Positions 13,790 through 60,098 of a DNA stretch of 64,000 bases are shown here, piece by piece (position 1 is the first letter of the stretch; every line of letters begins with the position of its first letter). The notes beneath the pieces were generated by a model that worked only from the letters and a program-made list of their open reading frames with translations, was not told the DNA's origin and did no database searches. The translations under genes were made by a program, and so were the position numbers. Source of the DNA: Chryseobacterium gleum (lineage in GTDB: Bacteria > Bacteroidota > Bacteroidia > Flavobacteriales_D > Sanyastnellaceae); NCBI GenBank assembly GCA_945881835.1, contig CAMCVP010000001.1, positions 434,001-498,000 on the forward strand, given 5' to 3'.

Positions 13790-14287
13790 ATGAAACAGGC
13801 CTGTTGCATTGGATTAATTCTTCTGCTACAGGCCTGTTCTACTTCAGACCCAGAAAATTCTGTTTCCGTATCGAAGGCGAATGAACGTTCGGTTTATTCG
13901 AAGAGCGAAGAGAATATTCTTACTTTTCTAAATTCGGAATACGAGACCGCCGTTTGGGCAAGCTTAGTTGAATTAAGCACCTGGGCAGATTCGTTAAAGA
14001 AAAACGAGTACACCTTGCTTGTCCCGTCAGATGCGGTTTTACGCAACAAAGGGTTAGATAAATATCAGGCTCTTGTGCCGTCTTCCAACAGATCTGAATT
14101 AAATAAAGAAATTGGTCATCACCTCATTCCAGGTCGCATTTCATTTGCGAATCTTCCTGACACGGTTTTGAAAAATGTGAATGGAGAGAGTTTAATCTAT
14201 AGTTCTTCCACCAAAAGACTTTCGGAGTTTGAGATTACTTCTGTGGAGCGGGAGCTAAAGCTGGGGCGAATAATTAGGATACGATAG
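13790..14287 (+). CDS. Fasciclin (FAS1)-like lipoprotein
   Basis: The 165-residue protein has a lipobox (LLLQAC, Cys16). The rest resembles a divergent or short FAS1 domain: an H1-like LVPSDAVLRNKGLDKY followed by IGHHLIPGRISFANLPD, the YH-type motif region. FAS1 domains are adhesion or extracellular binding modules. It lies 14 bases after pckA and may be read through from it. Its TAG stop codon is the first three bases of the palindromic repeat that begins the RAYT locus, so the last codons may have been replaced by insertion of that repeat. Confidence 0.65.
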   Translation: MKQACCIGLILLLQACSTSDPENSVSVSKANERSVYSKSEENILTFLNSEYETAVWASLVELSTWADSLKKNEYTLLVPSDAVLRNKGLDKYQALVPSSNRSELNKEIGHHLIPGRISFANLPDTVLKNVNGESLIYSSSTKRLSEFEITSVERELKLGRIIRIR

Positions 14288-14350
14288 GAATTATGTAATG
14301 GGAAAACCTTCGGTTTTATTCCTACTGCGTAATGGGAACTGCGTTGTTCC
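14285..14350 (+). repeat. Palindromic repeat A, left copy
   Basis: An outer 7-bp stem (TAGGAAT with ATTCCTA) encloses an inner 6-bp stem AAAACC/GGTTTT with loop ttc, followed by a GCGTAATGGGA core and a second hairpin GGAAC/GTTCC. The copy at 15123 has the same plan with a changed but still paired outer stem. The stop codon of the FAS1 gene forms the first three bases of the outer stem. Confidence 0.75.
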
Positions 14351-14361
14351 ATGATTGGATT

Positions 14362-14412
14362 GAGCTCGCTTTGCGAGAGGCATGGGTATTGCCCCCAGTG
14401 AAGCTGGGGGAT
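14362..14412 (+). repeat. REP-like element, left copy
   Basis: This 51-bp unit has two hairpins: CTCGC-ttt-GCGAG, then CCCCCAG-tgaag-CTGGGGG, joined by a conserved linker containing CATGGGTATTG. It is identical at 50 of 51 positions to the copy at 15007 and flanks the transposase gene in direct orientation. Confidence 0.9.
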
Positions 14413-14466
14413 TGAATCTTAAGATGGCGCACTTGCCTTCAGAGTTTGTAATTATCTAAACTTTTT

Positions 14467-14513
14467 TCCCCCACCTTCAGTGGGGGCATTACTCATGTCG
14501 CCCTAAGGGGCTC
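14467..14513 (-). repeat. REP-like element, inverted third copy over the tnpA stop
   Basis: Read on the minus strand this has the same two-hairpin plan: GCCC-ctta-GGGC, a linker with CATGAGTAATG, and CCCCCA-loop-TGGGGG. The stems differ from the flanking copies but still pair. It contains the TGA stop of the transposase gene, so the last codons of the protein are part of the repeat. Confidence 0.75.
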
Positions 14514-14936
14514 GCTGATGTGCGTCTCAATAAAGTTTCTGTTTCTTCCAGAGAATTCAAAACTGGAGTGATGCTCCTTTTGGTTCTGAATATACTTTTT
14601 CAATCGCGGTATTTCTGATTCACCGATACTGTATGCAGCATACCCCAATTGCCATTCAAAATCTTTGAGGAATTCCGCTTTAGTTTTCATCCAACGCGAT
14701 GAATTTGTCTTTAATTTTTCAGCAAGTTTCATCACTGCGATTTTTCTGGATAAGAAACAAAGGATATGAACGTGATCATAATATCCTCCAATTTCAATTC
14801 TAGGACACTCCATTTCAACACACAGACCTCCTAAATAGGTGTGCAAATCATTTTCAATTTGAGGGAGAATAAAAGGCTGTCTATACTTAGTTGAGAACAC
14901 CAGGTGAATAGCAATTTGTGAGATAGATTTTGCCAT
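14493..14936 (-). CDS. tnpA: Y1 (HUH) transposase, RAYT/IS200 type
   Basis: The 147-residue protein starts MAKSISQIAIHLVFSTKYRQPF, a Y1-transposase opening, and has the HUH metal site as DHVHIL and a candidate catalytic Tyr in KKYIQNQKEHH. These enzymes cut and rejoin single-stranded DNA at sites recognised through hairpins. The upstream ATG at 14972 is less likely because homologues start at MAK. The C-terminus ends ISEPLRAT, encoded within a REP-like palindrome. No frameshift is visible, so it may be active. Confidence 0.9.
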   Translation of the reverse strand: MAKSISQIAIHLVFSTKYRQPFILPQIENDLHTYLGGLCVEMECPRIEIGGYYDHVHILCFLSRKIAVMKLAEKLKTNSSRWMKTKAEFLKDFEWQLGYAAYSIGESEIPRLKKYIQNQKEHHSSFEFSGRNRNFIETHISEPLRAT

Positions 14937-15006
14937 ATTTTTTTTCGAGCTAAGTTCAATATGACATTTCACAAAGTCAAGAAAGACTTATGCTTATAAA
15001 AAGACA

Positions 15007-15203: not shown

Positions 15204-15277
15204 ACCGAAGGTTTGATCGCAAAGCGATTGATTCGAAGAATTGATCTAACGAAGTCAGATTGATCGCCATCGGCGAT
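15204..15277 (+). repeat. Mini-hairpin array with tg linkers
   Basis: Five successive hairpins follow one another: ACC/GGT (loop gaa), ATCGC/GCGAT (aaa), ATTC/GAAT (gaa), a 7-bp stem with one mismatch starting ATCT and ending AGAT (gaa), and ATCGCC/GGCGAT (atc). The last four are separated by a constant tg. The array ends directly at the 3' end of the following minus-strand gene. It is not a terminator: there is no T run. Confidence 0.8.
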
Positions 15278-30950: not shown

Positions 30951-33470
30951 ATGAACTTCCGACGCGCTCTAATTTTCACGTGTGTGGTGTTGATAAGCTC
31001 CTTATTGAACCCGTTGTCTGCGCAGTCTGATACCTTGTCGCCAATGCCTGTTGACACCCTTTATTTTTCTTCGGAAGAGCAAGCCATGGAAGAGGTTCAT
31101 TATTTCGGGAAGGACAGCACGGTGATGGATTTGATTAATGATCGCGTGTATTTATATGGATTGGGTTCCTATGTTACGTACGGAGATTTAGAGTTGAAAG
31201 CGGGATACATAGCTTTTTCCTTGACCGACAACATTGCTTTCGCGAAGGGATTCAAAGATTCGTTGGGGGTTTATACGGGAAGGCCAGTATTCACGCAAGG
31301 AGAGACATCGTTCGAAGAAGATTCCTTGGGATATAATTTCAAATCGAAAAGAGGAATTAGTTATGGTGTTCGCACGGAAGAGTCCGACGCGTATTTGCAC
31401 ACTGCCATTTCGAAGATGCAGGTAGACAAGACCATTCACATTCGAAAAGGTAAATTCACCACGTGTTCGAATCCGAATCCGCATTTCCATTTTCAATTGT
31501 CGAAGGCCATTATTATTCCGAATGAAAAGATTGTCAGCGGTCCGCTATACTTGCAATTCAGGAAAGTGCCGGTACCGTTGGGATTGCCGTTTGGATTCTT
31601 TCCGAATAAAAAAGAAAGCACTTACGGAATATTAATCCCAGGATATGGAAATGGAAGGGCGAAGGGATTCTTCGTTCAGAACTTGGGATACTATTTCCCC
31701 ATTAACGATCACATAGACACGAAGCTTTTGTTCGACGTCTACACCGGAGGATCTTGGAGTGTGAAGAACATTACGAACTATAAGACTCGATATAAGTATC
31801 AAGGTTCATTCAATATTTCAAGAACCGTTAACAAAACGGGCTTCCGCGAGTTATCGAATTATTTACAGCAGTCGACTTTCAACATTCGTTGGAATCATTC
31901 GCAAGATCCGAAGGCACGTCCGAACGAATCGTTCAACGCGAATGTGAATTTGGGAAGTTCTCAGAATTTCAGAAATAACTTGAACGCTACGCAACAAGAT
32001 TTCTTAACGAGCACCTTCAACTCTGCGGTGCAATGGTCGAAGTCTTTTCCTGGAAAGCCTTTCTCGTTGGCGCTTTCAGCGAATCACACGCAGAACACAC
32101 AATCGCGATTGGTTCAGATTACGCTTCCATCTGCGGCGTTCAACGTTTCGCGTATTAATTTGTTGAAGAAGGTCTTTCCGAAATCTCCAATTGGAATTAA
32201 CGCCTCGGTGAATACCGAGCAGCAGCTTTCGGCTTATGAGCAACAGTTCGGACAGTTGACCATGAGTGAATTGTTGAACAAGGCAACCAGCGGGGTTCGT
32301 ATGAATACTACCGCAAGTACTTCTTGGAAGTTGGGACAGTTTTTAACCTTGAATCCGAGTGCAACCTTCACGGGTTACGGGACTTGGAAAGTGGTTTCTC
32401 CGATTGGCGATGCGCAGTTGGATACGGTTGCTGGGTTCAAAGCAGCGGGGAATTGGTCTACTCAGATTTCAGCCAACACGCGTATTTACGGAACATTTGT
32501 AAGGAAGGGCGCGAAGAAGTTGAAAGCGGTTCGACACATGATTCAGCCTAACGTTGGGTTCTCCTACACGCCTTATCAGAATTTCCAGCAGTTCGGCTAT
32601 TACGGCGTGAACGGCGAGTTCTTGGGGTATTCGGCGTTTGATGCGGCAAGGTTTGCGCCAACGAGTTCATCGCAAACTGCGAACATGAATTTTTCTATTA
32701 ATCAGAATATTGAAGCGAAGGTTCGCGACGAGTCTTCTGCGAAGGTGTCGTATAAGAAGGTGAAGATTATTGACAGTTTTAGAACCAGTACATCGCGCAA
32801 CTTCATGGCCGATTCTATACAGTGGAGCAACGTGAATTTCTCGGCCTTTACATCGGTTGGAAAATTCTTAACAATGAACTATTCGTCTTCTTACAGCATG
32901 TACGATCGCGATTCGTTGGGTCGGAAGATTGATACGTTTTTGAATGAATCGCGAAAAGGAATTGCGCGCATGGAAGGCACTAATTTAGCATTGGGAATTG
33001 TTGTGCGCAGCAAGCAGGCGAAGCCAAGTTCTAATCAGACAGCGGCTAATCCGGCGGTTACTCCTCAGCAGCAAGAGATTCTTTCTACTAACCAAGCGAC
33101 GTTGATCGACTTCAATGTGCCTTGGAATTTGAGTGTGAATTACAATTTACGCATGAGTAAGAAGTGGTTGGTTGATCAACAGCGCGACAGTTCTATCTAT
33201 ACGCAAGCGGTGACGTTCATGGGCGATGTTGCCTTCGCGAAACGCTTGGCGTTGAGCTTCAACGGCGGATACGATTTCAACGCGAAGGAAATGACTACGA
33301 CGACCATTGGCCTTCACATAGATCTTCACTGTTGGGAGTTAAGTGCGAACGTGGTACCGTTCGGACTTCGTCAGAGTTATTACATTCAGCTGAATATTAA
33401 ATCGCCTTTGCTGCAAGATCTGAAATTGCAGAAGCGAGGTAATTTGGGAGAGGATTATTTGCTCTATTAG
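30951..33470 (+). CDS. lptD: LPS assembly outer-membrane protein LptD
   Basis: The protein is 839 residues from MNFRRAL, chosen because it begins a clear signal peptide ending LSAQS; the frame is open further upstream over the amidase start. An OstA/LptA-like periplasmic domain (NDRVYLYGLGSYVTYGDLELKAGYI) is followed by a large beta-barrel with GIPGYG-like and alternating aromatic strands. LptD inserts LPS into the outer leaflet with LptE. The TAG stop lies within the first hairpin of the array at 33461. Confidence 0.9.
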   Translation: MNFRRALIFTCVVLISSLLNPLSAQSDTLSPMPVDTLYFSSEEQAMEEVHYFGKDSTVMDLINDRVYLYGLGSYVTYGDLELKAGYIAFSLTDNIAFAKGFKDSLGVYTGRPVFTQGETSFEEDSLGYNFKSKRGISYGVRTEESDAYLHTAISKMQVDKTIHIRKGKFTTCSNPNPHFHFQLSKAIIIPNEKIVSGPLYLQFRKVPVPLGLPFGFFPNKKESTYGILIPGYGNGRAKGFFVQNLGYYFPINDHIDTKLLFDVYTGGSWSVKNITNYKTRYKYQGSFNISRTVNKTGFRELSNYLQQSTFNIRWNHSQDPKARPNESFNANVNLGSSQNFRNNLNATQQDFLTSTFNSAVQWSKSFPGKPFSLALSANHTQNTQSRLVQITLPSAAFNVSRINLLKKVFPKSPIGINASVNTEQQLSAYEQQFGQLTMSELLNKATSGVRMNTTASTSWKLGQFLTLNPSATFTGYGTWKVVSPIGDAQLDTVAGFKAAGNWSTQISANTRIYGTFVRKGAKKLKAVRHMIQPNVGFSYTPYQNFQQFGYYGVNGEFLGYSAFDAARFAPTSSSQTANMNFSINQNIEAKVRDESSAKVSYKKVKIIDSFRTSTSRNFMADSIQWSNVNFSAFTSVGKFLTMNYSSSYSMYDRDSLGRKIDTFLNESRKGIARMEGTNLALGIVVRSKQAKPSSNQTAANPAVTPQQQEILSTNQATLIDFNVPWNLSVNYNLRMSKKWLVDQQRDSSIYTQAVTFMGDVAFAKRLALSFNGGYDFNAKEMTTTTIGLHIDLHCWELSANVVPFGLRQSYYIQLNIKSPLLQDLKLQKRGNLGEDYLLY

Positions 33471-33599
33471 AGCAAGAATGTGCGAAGCACGAATGCCCGA
33501 AGGGCGAGGGTCTTTGACGAGGGCAACTGGCGTTGCGAGGGCAATTAGCATTGCGAGGGTCCTATGGACGAGGGTTGCGGAGCAACGAGGGTCTTCGAC
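33461..33599 (+). repeat. Mini-hairpin array with gagg linkers, copy 1
   Basis: Nine hairpins follow one another. Stems in order: GCTC/GAGC, GTGC/GCAC, GCCC/GGGC, GTC/GAC, GCAAC/GTTGC, GCAAT/ATTGC, GTCC/GGAC, GTTGC/GCAAC, GTC/GAC. Loops are 3-5 bases (gaa, ttt, tggc, tagc, tat, gga, ttc among them). The first linkers end in gaat; from the third stem on every linker is exactly gagg. The lptD stop codon is inside the first hairpin and the array ends eight bases before the dinB stop. Confidence 0.85.
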
Positions 33600-33606
33600 G
33601 ATTCAA

Positions 33607-34125
33607 TCAATTCCCTAAATAGCTGTGGGTTACAAAATTGCAATGATGAATGCAATGTCCAACAATCATGAAGCCGATGGCGCGAGTGGAGTAGGTGGTG
33701 TTGTTCGCGGGGGCTTGGAACTGAAGCATTTCAGGCGACATGTATTTGAATAAGGCAATGGTGGACTTGCGGACGAGCTCGAATTCAGCAATTAATTCAG
33801 CAAGGCTTTGATTCATTTGTTTCGAGTTTTCGATAAAATCATTTTCATCGAATCCAGGAAGAGGCGTGCTGTCGAATCGTGAAAAACGCAAGGCGCGATA
33901 AGCGAAGATTCGCTCACATTCTATGATGTGCTTGAACACTTCTTTGGTTGTCCATTTATTTGGAGCGTAGGCAAAATTTTCTTTTTCGGAAGGGATGGAT
34001 TTGAGTATGTCGAGTGTTGCATTTAAATCTTCTTCCAACGCCACTAACAAGTCATTCGACGGAATAAGCCCGTAGTAATAGTGGAAGTAGGTTGGCGCTT
34101 CGGAGTAGATTTCTTGGTTAGTCAT
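33607..34125 (-). CDS. DinB family protein
   Basis: The 172-residue four-helix protein has DinB/YfiT-type marks: WTTKEVFKHIIECERIFAYRALRF with one metal-binding His and a C-terminal GHCIHHCNF with the others. Members are metal-dependent thiol transferases or uncharacterised. It is flanked on both sides by copies of the gagg hairpin array, which suggests the gene and arrays may have moved together or that the array was duplicated around it. Confidence 0.88.
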   Translation of the reverse strand: MTNQEIYSEAPTYFHYYYGLIPSNDLLVALEEDLNATLDILKSIPSEKENFAYAPNKWTTKEVFKHIIECERIFAYRALRFSRFDSTPLPGFDENDFIENSKQMNQSLAELIAEFELVRKSTIALFKYMSPEMLQFQAPANNTTYSTRAIGFMIVGHCIHHCNFVTHSYLGN

Positions 34126-34151
34126 GATGTGATGATTAGTATAATGTCAAC

Positions 34152-34242
34152 GAGGGTCTTCGACGAGGGCAACTGTGTTGCGAGGGCAATTTGCGTTGCG
34201 AGGGTCCGGTGGACGAGGGTTGCGGAGCAACGAGGGTCTTGG
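34152..34242 (+). repeat. Mini-hairpin array with gagg linkers, copy 2
   Basis: The stems GTC, GCAAC, GCAA, GTCC, GTTGC and GTC come in the same order as in copy 1 and again with gagg linkers. The loops differ (ttc for ttt, tgt for tggc, ggt for tat). The last unit is decayed. It lies between the dinB start and the parE stop. Confidence 0.85.
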
Positions 34243-34256
34243 ATTATTTCCAATTG

Positions 34257-34550
34257 CTATAAGCGATTTTCGATATCCATCATTTCATGCAAAATCCTTA
34301 TTACCTCTAATTTGTCTTTCTTGATGTTCAGTTTGTAAAAGATTAAGTGGGATTTCACTTTCGATCTGCGGTATCCTTTTTTGATTTCATCATAGTCGAG
34401 GCCAGATTCAGGATGTTCGCTTAAGTATTCAATTTCATTAAAAATTAAATTGAGATATCGGTCAGCCTGTTCTTCGGACCAGTTTTCTTGAGTGTACAGC
34501 CAGATTTTTTCTAAGTCTCTTTCGGCTTCCTTACTTATCTGCGGAATCAT
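34257..34550 (-). CDS. parE: Type II toxin, RelE/ParE family
   Basis: The 97-residue protein has the ParE/RelE fold signature: ISKEAERDLEKIWLYTQENWSEEQADRYLNLI at the start and YRRSKVKSHLIFYKL in the core strands, ending VIRILHEMMDIENRL. ParE toxins poison DNA gyrase; RelE toxins cut mRNA. The context and the LHEMMD ending favour ParE. It overlaps its antitoxin gene by four bases, the normal arrangement. Confidence 0.93.
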   Translation of the reverse strand: MIPQISKEAERDLEKIWLYTQENWSEEQADRYLNLIFNEIEYLSEHPESGLDYDEIKKGYRRSKVKSHLIFYKLNIKKDKLEVIRILHEMMDIENRL

Positions 34551-34795
34551 TTTTTCAAATGTGTTGCTTTAAGTTTTTTCAAAAAAGAGTCTCTATTGAA
34601 GTCTTTTGCTATCCCGGATTTTTCACCTTTTTCAAGTTCTCTGATGAGCTCAAGTTTTTTAGCTTCTTCCTGTTCGAACATTCTTAATGCTGTTCGTACA
34701 ACTTCGCTGGCAGAAGAGAACTTTCCAGTTTGTACCATTCCATTTATGAAATTCTCGAAATAATCTCCTAGGAGTATTGAAGTGTTTTTAGCCAT
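34547..34795 (-). CDS. parD: Type II antitoxin, ParD family
   Basis: The 82-residue protein has a ribbon-helix-helix start (NTSILLGDYFENFINGMVQTGKFSSASEVVRTALRMFE) and a charged C-terminal tail that would wrap the toxin. It comes first in the operon. A perfect palindrome overlapping its promoter suggests it represses its own transcription. Confidence 0.93.
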   Translation of the reverse strand: MAKNTSILLGDYFENFINGMVQTGKFSSASEVVRTALRMFEQEEAKKLELIRELEKGEKSGIAKDFNRDSFLKKLKATHLKK

Positions 34796-34814
34796 GACTT
34801 TTTATATTGCATCA

Positions 34815-34846
34815 CAAATATACCAATTCATGGTATGTTTTGCAAA
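34815..34846 (-). promoter_or_regulatory. parDE promoter and operator
   Basis: On the minus strand TTTG, then 20 bases, then TATATTTG gives the full Bacteroidota -33/-7 promoter, the clearest in the window. A palindrome (ATACCA-5-TGGTAT, 34820-34836) overlaps the -7 box. ParD binding there would block RNA polymerase. Confidence 0.8.
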
Positions 34847-34874
34847 GTCGTGAAAAAAAATTTGAGTTTAGAAT

Positions 34875-34910
34875 AGAATGAGAAACAGAAACAGAATGAG
34901 AAACAGATTC
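34875..34910. repeat. Two tandem copies of an 18-bp unit
   Basis: The unit AGAATGAGAAACAG plus four bases occurs twice in a row with three differences near the end. It lies between the parD promoter and nuoN. No function is evident. Confidence 0.5.
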
Positions 34911-34930
34911 TTTTCTTCCCCTCTCTTAAC

Positions 34931-36283
34931 TTAAAGATTGTGCATGTACCCTGCTGCTACAGTAAGCAAAACCAACAAAGCCGTTAGCAAAATGTACGTC
35001 CATTTAACAAGTGGAGTTAGGACAATGCGGCCGGCGTTTTCGATGTGCTGATAAACATTCAACGATGCGCGCAAGTAGTAAAAGGCTCCGATAGCAGAGG
35101 TGATGATCATGACAACAACCAATGCGAAATACTTCGCTTCGATCAATTGCGCAATGACGAAATACTTCGCTATGAAACCGCTAAACGGAGGAATACCTGC
35201 CATTGATAGTAATGCAGCGGTGAAAGCAAATGCCAATACACCGTTTCTTCTGTACAAGCCTTTCAACGGATTTCCTTCCAAGGTTTGTGTTTCTTTGATT
35301 ACACCGAAGGCAATGATTCCTGCAATGCTGTACGTGAGCAAATAGAACAACAAACTCAACAACGATGCATTTCCAATAATGGTTGAAAGAAGGAAACCAG
35401 CGTGAGAGATACTCGAGTAAGCCAACATGCGCTTCACGTCGGTTTGCCACAATGCTACCGTGTTTGAAGCAATAAGCGTTACCGCAGCGATAACTCCAAT
35501 GGTGTAACCATTGGCTTCAACATAAAATTGAAATGGACCTGTGAAGAGTTTGAACAACGCTACCATAGCAGCTGCTTTCACAATCGTTGACATGAATGCG
35601 GTGATCCATGTTGGAGCACCTTGATAAACGTCTGGAGTCCAGATGTGGAAAGGTGCTGCAGAAATTTTGAAAAGGAATCCAACCAAAATCATGGTAATTC
35701 CAACATTCATAATGATCGATGCGTCTTTTCCTTCTTGAATGAAATTCGAGATAACCGCTAAGTCGAAACTTCCAGTTGCGCCGTAAACCAAGGTGATTCC
35801 GAACAACAAAATAGCAGAAGCCACAGAACCAAGTATGAAGTACTTGAATCCACTTTCGTTTGAAGCCAAATCGTGTTTCTTACTCGCTGCCAAAACATAA
35901 ACAGGAATACTTAAGATTTCAACCCCTAAGAATAACATAGCCATGTTTCCGAAAGAAGCCAAGAGTCCAGCACCGCAAAAGCTGAATACAACTAAGGCGT
36001 ACAAATCTGTTTTTCCTTCGTGTTGTTTGAAGTAAGACGAAGAAAGAATAAACCAGAAGAACAAGACTACAGCGAACACGCCTAAAGCCAAGTTCGCTCC
36101 GTTTTCATACACCAACATGGTGTGATTGAAGGGCGTCTCAACGGTGTTCCAATCGGCAGCAATAAAGCCAACCAACGTAGCCAAGGCAAGAAGTATAAAT
36201 GGGAGAACGTATTTCTTCAGGTTTAGAATGTCTAAAACCAAAACTCCAATTCCCAATAATGCGGTTAGTAATAACTCTTTCAT
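34931..36283 (-). CDS. nuoN: NADH-quinone oxidoreductase subunit N
   Basis: The protein is 450 residues from MKELLLTALL; a longer start would overlap nuoM. It is one of three antiporter-like proton-pumping subunits of Complex I, with about 14 membrane helices and the family stretch KMLAYSSISHAGFLL. It is the last gene of the nuo operon. Confidence 0.95.
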   Translation of the reverse strand: MKELLLTALLGIGVLVLDILNLKKYVLPFILLALATLVGFIAADWNTVETPFNHTMLVYENGANLALGVFAVVLFFWFILSSSYFKQHEGKTDLYALVVFSFCGAGLLASFGNMAMLFLGVEILSIPVYVLAASKKHDLASNESGFKYFILGSVASAILLFGITLVYGATGSFDLAVISNFIQEGKDASIIMNVGITMILVGFLFKISAAPFHIWTPDVYQGAPTWITAFMSTIVKAAAMVALFKLFTGPFQFYVEANGYTIGVIAAVTLIASNTVALWQTDVKRMLAYSSISHAGFLLSTIIGNASLLSLLFYLLTYSIAGIIAFGVIKETQTLEGNPLKGLYRRNGVLAFAFTAALLSMAGIPPFSGFIAKYFVIAQLIEAKYFALVVVMIITSAIGAFYYLRASLNVYQHIENAGRIVLTPLVKWTYILLTALLVLLTVAAGYMHNL

Positions 36284-55335: not shown

Positions 55336-55389
55336 GTCGCAGACATTCGCCACAGGCATTCGTTCGAAGAACATTCGTCACAGACTTTC
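55336..55389 (+). repeat. Mini-hairpin array with attc linkers
   Basis: Four hairpins in a row: GTC/GAC (loop gca), GCC/GGC (aca), GTTC/GAAC (gaa), GTC/GAC (aca). The linkers are attc, attc, attc, and after the last unit tttc. All four stems pair perfectly. The array fills the gap between two convergent genes and starts 10 bases after the stop at 55326. Confidence 0.85.
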
Positions 55390-58682: not shown

Positions 58683-59743
58683 ACCTTCAATCCAAATCGA
58701 ATTGGCACTCGCGCGAGTTGGCGCTTTACGGCACCACTTGCGAAGAAATTAAAAAGTGGGTGAGTTATTTTCAGTTGGAAGTGAATCAGCGTTTGGCTTA
58801 TGTCGATGCTTCTCACGCGGAAGAAAATTCAGATTCTTCATTTGGAATAACCACTCACGAAAATCATTTTGTTCTTCAGGAAGAAACAGGACTCGATCAA
58901 ACTGTCCTTCATGAATTCGATGGGGCGTTAGTCAACGGCAATCACCATGCGGCTTCCAGCCAAATCATTTTTGTTAATCTTGAAAAAGAAAACAGTTTAG
59001 TCAAGCGAAGCGCAGAACTAACCAACGTGTTAGCCGTCGTCCTTCCGGAAGGAATGACAGAAGTTCCCGCGTATGTTCAACCCTTCCTTCAACCCGAAAC
59101 TAAAATTTTTATGTTGAAGGAAGATGTGCTTGTATTCGTTTCAACCTTCTTTGAAGTGGCGTCTCTGAAAGCATTGGTATTGTTGGGAGGAAAGAGCAGT
59201 CGTATGGGTGAAGAAAAAGGACTCATTCAATACCATGAAAGAACACAAGCGGAACATTTGGTTTCCCTGTTGGAAGAAATAGGATTGGAAGTTTTTCTTT
59301 CCGTTCGGGAAGAACAGAAAGAGAATTATGCGTTCTTGAACAGCCCGTTTATTGCGGATCAACTTCAAGGTGCAGGTCCACTTGGAGGAATCGCTTCCGC
59401 CATGCGAACATTTCCACAAACGGCATTTTTAGTCGTGGCATGTGACCTTCCGAATTTGCAAAAAGAACAACTCGAATTTTTGTTGAAGAATAGAAAAACA
59501 AAAGCGTTTGCTACGTGTTATGAATCCCCATTAGACGGAGGTCCAGAGCCGTTGTGTTCCATATACGAACCGAAATCTTTTTCGGCATTGATGAAAGTTT
59601 GGGTAAGCGGAAAGAGTTGTCCGAGAAAAATGCTTTTCAATCGAACCGTTGAAGTTCTTCCAATTAAAGATTCGAAATTTTTAGTCAATGCGAATACGCC
59701 AGAGGAGCGCATTCAACTTCAAGAAAAAAGTAAAAGACCGTGA
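58679..59743 (+). CDS. mobA: Molybdenum cofactor guanylyltransferase MobA with N-terminal MobB-like domain
   Basis: The 354-residue protein has a C-terminal MobA domain from about residue 160: VLLGGKSSRMGEEKG, VACDLPNL, and CSIYEP. It adds GMP to molybdopterin. Residues 1-150 align in style with a MobB-type P-loop domain in which the Walker A Gly-Lys-Thr is replaced (ALYGTTCEEIKKW) and VDASHAEEN may be the following strand. Bacteroidota relatives share this layout as I recall, so it is a conserved fusion with a degenerate nucleotide site. Its TGA stop overlaps the 3' end of rnpB by about 12 bases. Confidence 0.85.
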   Translation: MNLQSKSNWHSRELALYGTTCEEIKKWVSYFQLEVNQRLAYVDASHAEENSDSSFGITTHENHFVLQEETGLDQTVLHEFDGALVNGNHHAASSQIIFVNLEKENSLVKRSAELTNVLAVVLPEGMTEVPAYVQPFLQPETKIFMLKEDVLVFVSTFFEVASLKALVLLGGKSSRMGEEKGLIQYHERTQAEHLVSLLEEIGLEVFLSVREEQKENYAFLNSPFIADQLQGAGPLGGIASAMRTFPQTAFLVVACDLPNLQKEQLEFLLKNRKTKAFATCYESPLDGGPEPLCSIYEPKSFSALMKVWVSGKSCPRKMLFNRTVEVLPIKDSKFLVNANTPEERIQLQEKSKRP

Positions 59744-60098
59744 GCGTAAGCCGGGTTCTGTTCATGTGTTGCCACATGTTTCATCATTTATCTATGCGAT
59801 CTACCCTCCGAGATTGAGCGAGCAACTCTTCAGTTGGAACGAATCCAACGGCCTCGGTTTATTTGATCTTACAGCCCGCAAGGTTTTCCTAGCTCGTCTT
59901 GTTACCAAGAACGACGGTGGTCTCTTACACCTCCTTTTCACCCTTACCACTATTGCTAGTGGCGGTTTAATTTCTGCAGCACTGTCTGTCCATTAAACTT
60001 GCGTTTAACGTCCCCCGCTTTTCACAGGGTGCGGCGCTCTGCGCAGCCCGGACTTTCCTCTAGTTTTGCAACCAGCGATGAATCCTCTTCGGTCTTTG
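59732..60098 (-). ncRNA. rnpB: RNase P RNA (class A)
   Basis: Read on the minus strand the transcript begins near AAAGACCG, has the near-universal AGAGGAAAGTCCGGGCT (P4 5' side) at about 40 bases in, and ends with ACAGAACCCGGCTTA and CGGTCTTT. The first and last octamers pair as helix P1. No large deletions are visible. The RNA is the catalytic part of RNase P, which matures the 5' ends of tRNAs. The 3' end lies over the end of the convergent mobA gene. Confidence 0.95.

Follow-up and report, generated by a model that had tools for sequence, protein, structure and literature searches.

Rickettsia palindromic elements insert in frame inside protein genes. Among the closest described systems to the arrays reported here are also the REP/BIME families and the GTAG- or CGTC-tagged repeats. 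As described in PMC3733652 and PMC12306157, these palindromes are short and dispersed, carry a tetranucleotide tag, lie mainly between genes and vary in stem and loop. Their stems measure 6-13 bp, their units are copies of one consensus that stand alone, in pairs or in groups, and CGTC tags are reported as sometimes being CCTC. A tag of the Rickettsia elements is noted in PMC3733652. In the organelles of Volvox carteri, palindromes of about 50 bases on average, with restricted loops of 3-5 bases (TAAA/TTTA), fill the non-coding DNA, are nested and are considered selfish (PMC2670323). The PARCEL repeats, as characterized in PMC2996958, are dyad-symmetric, follow a 25-residue protein motif, encode variable tracts in membrane-associated proteins and undergo intragenomic shuffling. 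Certain loops are also known to confer unusual stability on DNA itself. GNA and GNNA loops form a class of exceptionally stable DNA mini-hairpins (PMC4686876), and the title of Nakano et al. 2002, as listed among the references of PMC2984261, places d(cGNNAg) and d(gCNNGc) among four stable DNA tetraloop motifs.

The window, i.e., the whole stretch of 64,000 nucleotides that was analysed, carries strings of very small hairpins. Each unit comprises a tag of 4-5 bases and a mini-hairpin, mostly with a 3-6 bp stem and a loop of 3-4 bases. One linker is repeated through each array while the hairpins differ, and the linkers are GAGG, GAAT, TTGA, ATGA or their complements. These four dialects (GAGG/CCTC, GAAT/ATTC, TTGA/TCAA and ATGA/TCAT) account for 85 of the 86 arrays in the widest set, and an ATCTT/AAGAT form with 2-bp stems was read by eye in genome G003. 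Like REP/RAYT elements, the arrays combine a short tag with a palindrome, occur in many copies and are mainly extragenic. Unlike them, they show no single consensus of the GTAG or CGTC type with a 6-13 bp stem; four linkers accompany many stems of 3-6 bp, different hairpins are strung on one tag, and one genome contains several tags. The Rickettsia elements resemble the arrays in their in-frame occurrence within protein genes, but they are longer single elements with one consensus, whereas the arrays are modular and change their words at one and the same site. The Volvox palindromes are likewise hairpins with small loops of restricted sequence, but differ in length, in loop sequence, in belonging to organelle genomes and in having no repeated tag between different hairpins. 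PARCEL is reminiscent of those arrays that lie inside a gene, but array hairpins are mostly non-coding. No bacterial hairpin arrays of this kind were found described in open-licence full texts. Tag-sharing strings of different mini-hairpins, with several tags per genome, fit none of the definitions checked, although their parts are similar to REPs, tagged palindromes, Rickettsia elements and Volvox palindromes.

Two GAGG arrays in direct orientation enclose a gene of the DinB_2 family (Table 1). Direct reading and a script gave the same GAGG starts, at 33506, 33519, 33537, 33555, 33570 and 33587 in copy 1 and at 34152, 34165, 34182, 34200, 34215 and 34232 in copy 2. The first-pass annotation had stated that six stems follow one another in the same order in both copies, and this order (GTC, GCAAC, GCAA(T), GTCC, GTTGC, GTC) is identical. 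It had also placed the copies 700 bases apart on opposite sides of dinB; the position is right and the distance is 646 bases. The window contains 10 hairpins flanked by GAGG in all, whereas 50 first-order Markov versions had 0.16 on average and never more than 1. When the units of the two copies were parsed by hand and aligned, differences appeared at 2 of the 50 stem positions and at 7 of the 20 loop positions (Fisher p = 0.0016, stems against loops), so that stems changed less than loops in this pair; none of the 24 linker bases had changed. The structural constraint proposed earlier is thus borne out as far as pairing is concerned. The linkers, although unpaired, match the stems in conservation here, so that stem pairing is not the sole constraint.

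Table 1. Hairpin arrays and adjoining genes in the window.
Feature	Position	Strand	Composition or evidence
TTGA-dialect array	15213..15263	+	TCGC-AAA-GCGA, TTC-GAA-GAA, longer unit
lptD-like gene; copy 1 directly after its stop codon	30642..33470	+	Pfam LptD_2 2.2e-123
Two GAAT-dialect units	33476..33505	+	GTGC-GAA-GCAC, GCCC-GAA-GGGC (sequence)
Array copy 1	33506..33600	+	GTC-TTT-GAC, GCAAC-TGGC-GTTGC, GCAAT-TAGC-ATTGC, GTCC-TAT-GGAC, GTTGC-GGA-GCAAC, GTC-TTC-GAC; linker GAGG
DinB_2-family gene between both arrays	33607..34125	-	Pfam PF12867 1.5e-14
Array copy 2	34152..34242	+	Five intact GAGG-linked mini-hairpins, GTC-TTC-GAC, GCAAC-TGT-GTTGC, GCAAT-TTGC-GTTGC (one T.G), GTCC-GGT-GGAC, GTTGC-GGA-GCAAC, and a decayed sixth, GTC-TTG-GAT
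parD-parE toxin-antitoxin pair adjoining copy 2	34257..34795	-	Pfam ParD_antitoxin 3.9e-25, ParE_toxin 2.6e-18
parDE components	34547-34795 and 34257-34550	-	Pfam
Two-unit GAAT/ATTC-dialect array	55345..55376	-	GCC-ACA-GGC, GTTC-GAA-GAAC (+ strand reading)

The pair was previously regarded as the product of a duplication, its copies bracketing a single gene. A recent duplication around dinB is contradicted by the relatives. Four of them hold an array where copy 1 stands here, directly behind the stop codon of lptD, and G001 has an array 5' of dinB that includes the common unit GTCC-GGT-GGAC. The two GAAT-dialect units that precede copy 1 are joined to it head to tail, forming a mixed-dialect array, and the array after lptD has the same start in G001 and G003. 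A single gene does stand between the copies, but the bracket is incidental and dinB is not the key, as the arrays are dispersed throughout the genus. In relatives, dinB has arrays on both sides, on one or on neither, and the other neighbours of arrays include lptD, lepA, an EngA-type GTPase, a RecQ-type helicase, a TonB receptor, parDE and ORF6N. A dinB-specific device was accordingly rejected.

A linker-agnostic detector reports an array wherever three or more hairpins in a row are preceded and followed by one identical four-base word. Over 955 kb of this genome it found 27 such arrays; one second-order Markov version gave none. Contig C1 of this genome, taken whole (665 kb), has 15. In 683 kb of genus sequence, partly selected for matches, 50 distinct arrays were detected against none in the second-order Markov version, and 382 kb of genus sequence not selected for matches contained two. 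Chains of at least four hairpins without the linker rule are little above chance (26 versus 19 in one Markov version, 400 kb). The array signal therefore comes from the common linker and not from plain hairpin chains. TTGA arrays often stand directly after TCAA arrays, and such a pair is itself an inverted repeat. Array orientations are mixed within 14 kb of contig C6, and a simple link to the replication strand was discarded. Additional repeat dialects missed by the detector are present at 14260-14370 of the window and in L003, L010 and L011; they are strings of the GGAAT-TAC-GAA-GTA and AAC-TTC-GTT types with GTTGG, and a TTTATCC type occurs in G004.

The arrays are a lineage-specific dispersed family of this Flavobacteriales genus of freshwater bacteria, and they are nearly restricted to it. 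Among 120 related genomes, the GAGG word GAGGGTCCNNNGGACGAGGG, with at most one mismatch, was present in eight of the nine genus genomes and in one of the 111 others; the reversed control pattern gave a single match in all. A second word, CGAATGCCNNNGGCGAATG, was present in seven of the nine and in one of 390 other genomes of the order. No array surrounds the single out-of-genus matches (G104, G035), and a scan of 20 stretches (358 kb in all), taken from 20 other members of the family or order, found none. G007, which lacks both words, is the most diverged member of the genus by protein identity. A class-wide search for the TTGA dialect, in a sample holding no other genus member, matched this genome only. 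The GAGG word occurs in 62 records of the genome collection, 29 of which were assigned by their titles to Flavobacteriales, Bacteroidetes or 'Chryseobacterium gleum' MAGs; 23 of these contain an array of at least three units. The remaining 33 records, including two of the Prevotella group, contain none and look like chance matches. The viral collection contains no exact copy of the word, and a phage origin was set aside. Array-bearing MAGs filed as Chryseobacterium gleum (L161, L169 and other CAMDFE/CAMCUG records) appear to be mislabelled.

The stems of the arrays covary, so that the constraint proposed from two copies extends to many. Intervals were selected solely by GAGG at both ends, and their 3' halves were shuffled 500 times. 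At an inner length of 11 (n = 78), 85% of positions were paired against 69% in the best shuffle; the corresponding values were 84% against 58.5% at length 13 (n = 39) and 87.5% against 72.7% at length 14 (n = 91). With distinct intervals alone, pairing was 68%, 73% and 75% against 58%, 50% and 62% for these three lengths; related copies are not independent, and none of these figures is to be read as a probability. No pairing excess was seen for GAGG intervals 15 bases long, nor for the other linkers at most even lengths. A direct example is the third unit of the array after lptD, GCAAT-TAGC-ATTGC in this genome and GCAAC-TAGC-GTTGC in G003, where the loop is the same and both arms have changed. 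Paired stems with free loops would also be produced by a neutral process, in which template switching during replication (quasi-palindrome correction) keeps inverted repeats perfect and slippage multiplies them, with no role for the product. This process would account as well for the changing content of one site. Among one-mismatch matches of the GTCC word, 30 of 37 changes fall in the linker, which argues against a strictly fixed linker and partly favours the neutral explanation. It leaves unexplained the unchanged unpaired linkers of the two window copies, the bias towards C-GNA-G loops and the presence of several linkers in one genome, and is considered unlikely.

The loops were read on the CCTC, TTGA, ATTC or TCAT strand. 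Among 123 distinct triloops, 49 are GNA and 21 are the complementary TNC (70 together), while the mirror forms ANG and CNT contribute one in all. The closing pair of the hairpin words is C-G in 117 cases and G-C in 8. The CCTC dialect has 21 distinct tetraloops, of which 13 read GNNA; TNNC is not among them. GNA or GNNA loops closed by C-G are therefore enriched in the family, though not present in every unit, and many loops are neither GNA nor TNC. Loop class and closing pair are those of the exceptionally stable DNA mini-hairpins; the latter are known from synthetic oligonucleotides, whereas the arrays are a natural genomic family whose stability is predicted from loop sequence. Some observations count against the argument. 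GNA and TNC are about equal in the ATTC dialect (27 and 31 of 88 triloop units), and the folding program gives equal triloop energies for both strands. Tetraloops give a small strand difference with RNA as well as with DNA parameters. The loop and closing-pair bias points to DNA hairpins.

The hairpin strings could instead act after transcription, at mRNA ends, as stability elements, binding sites or sponges, and GAGG could pair with the ribosomal anti-Shine-Dalgarno sequence. Arrays pair well as RNA too according to the folding program, and some follow directly after stop codons. However, arrays occur in all gene orientations (of 38 placed arrays, 16 minus-minus, 11 convergent, 6 divergent and 5 plus-plus) and also inside a gene, only one linker resembles a Shine-Dalgarno sequence, and the tetraloops are mostly GNNA, not the RNA-type GNRA. 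Terminator-like sites and Rfam matches are also absent. No G+C-rich hairpin followed by a T-run was found in 33300-35000, which dismisses a transcription terminator. A known RNA family was likewise rejected, as the arrays gave no gathering-level match to Rfam 15, where RNase P (59731-60095) was the sole match of the window. A function in RNA is thus very unlikely. Diversity-generating retroelements use DNA hairpin targets with G..A loops, and the arrays might be targets of such elements. A reverse transcriptase (PF00078) was found in none of the nine genus genomes and was detected in three of 14 control genomes. For enzymes found by this model, the retroelement reading is largely refuted and can be considered extremely improbable.

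A tetranucleotide tag beside a hairpin is the design of REPs (PMC3733652). By analogy, the hairpins might be moved, now or formerly, by a Y1 (IS200-like) transposase that acts on single strands and recognizes tag and hairpin together. Arrays lie within 300 bp of four of the six Y1 genes examined in the genus, while 3.4% of positions in this genome would do so by chance. However, no Y1 gene was found in the array-bearing genomes G002, G003, G005 and G008 (completeness 96% for G003 and 71-85% for the other three), the four arrays next to Y1 genes belong to different dialects, and the Y1 genes of this genome are flanked by other, larger palindromes. Such an enzyme may therefore have helped but was seemingly not needed, and a REP/RAYT origin is regarded as improbable. 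In the region 14200-15000 of the window, an IS200-like Y1 transposase gene is located at 14496-14936 on the minus strand. Larger palindromes with runs like GCCCCCAGTGAAGCTGGGGG occur on both of its flanks; they are probably REP-type sites of this gene itself, distinct from the mini-hairpin arrays.

Arrays have also been found inside a gene. A glycosyltransferase-like membrane gene, with weak Pfam matches to PMT_2 and Glyco_transf_22, contains them at two sites in G000, G003, G004, G005 and G006, all in open frames. They are absent from G007 and from 13 homologs of other genera; one further homolog, L238, had been taken in the wrong frame and was not counted in this comparison. The in-gene units have lengths whose sum is divisible by three (11+4; 9+4 with 13+4; 7+5). 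Different species have different dialects at one and the same site, which implies that sites persist while their content turns over. The encoded peptide looks incidental.

The surroundings of the arrays differ between species. In G000, G001, G003, G004 and G006, the stop codon of lptD is immediately followed by an array, and the DNA beyond this array is different in each genome. The corresponding site is occupied by another repeat in G008 and coincides with a contig end in G005. In some genomes, array sites are taken up or adjoined by a purine-rich repeat, GGTAAGAGAAGG / TTAAGA (L249 of G008, after lptD, and L080). Colinearity with this genome was compared at 49 array sites, 19 of them without a match on either side and 8 with too short a flank, and at 65 array-free control gaps, of which 44 had no match; neighbouring arrays were merged, and rows for arrays within the glycosyltransferase gene (three loci) were excluded. 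Among informative cases in relatives, 18 of 22 array sites were not colinear, compared with 4 of 21 among the control gaps (Fisher p = 5e-5), or 3 of 10 when only gaps of at least 120 bp are considered (p = 0.013). These p-values overstate the effect because array copies and events are related; several rows have in common either lptD or the arrangement of parDE seen in G002 and G005. Arrays are thus in excess where gene order differs between species. Homology ends within 100 bp of the array in 12 of 20 cases and elsewhere in 8, the latter being counted against exchange. Arrays enclose a parDE block in this genome (contig C6), G001, G002 and G005, in three different neighbourhoods; G002 and G005 have one arrangement in common, and the other blocks stand beside different genes. 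These blocks are cassette-like, and resemble the attC cassettes of integrons in outline only. Taken together, these patterns suggest that arrays are likely to serve as exchange points between gene neighbourhoods. The genomes are all draft MAGs or draft-like, and repeats can create false joins; given these possible joins and the overlap among events, the exchange role is regarded as likely and unproven. Under the neutral explanation, arrays would mark the breaks only through junk collecting in the spacers of mobile regions.

The constant tag, the free choice of stems, the stable DNA loop and the turnover of whole units suggest a palindrome active in single-stranded DNA. The favoured explanation, which has about an even chance of being correct, is a REP-like tagged DNA palindrome subject to templated rewriting in single-stranded DNA and to recombination between gene neighbourhoods. 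The strand favouring GNA or GNNA loops, when single-stranded, would readily fold into a series of highly stable hairpins. These may provoke copying or template switching, a putative activity that would rewrite a stem on both arms at once. Either process could further add or drop whole units and spread them between arrays. The dispersed arrays would then offer homology for the exchange of neighbouring gene blocks, such as dinB or parDE, and recombination would be the candidate cause of the breaks in gene order. A bolder proposal envisages a new repeat class, in which the tag is the dialect and any mini-hairpin with an ultra-stable loop is a word, rewritten whole in single-stranded DNA, with arrays acting as gene-cassette exchange junctions that dispense with a dedicated integrase; this proposal is doubtful, though conceivable.

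If the favoured explanation is true, many natural hairpins of DNA, not RNA, would be under structural constraint, with compensatory changes traceable between orthologous sites. The rearrangement of genes, toxin-antitoxin pairs among them, would be linked to small structured repeats, and arrays may help genes to change places. The spread and persistence of tiny palindromes, a long-open question, would become testable by species comparison. There is also a practical warning, as short structured repeats of the array type stand where draft assemblies and gene orders disagree.

Genes with ORF6N and KilA-N domains adjoin arrays at several places (L052:8151-9017, L260:7562-8428, L266:3405-4250), and two ORF6N genes have a common upstream stretch near GAATAAACAGCATATAA.
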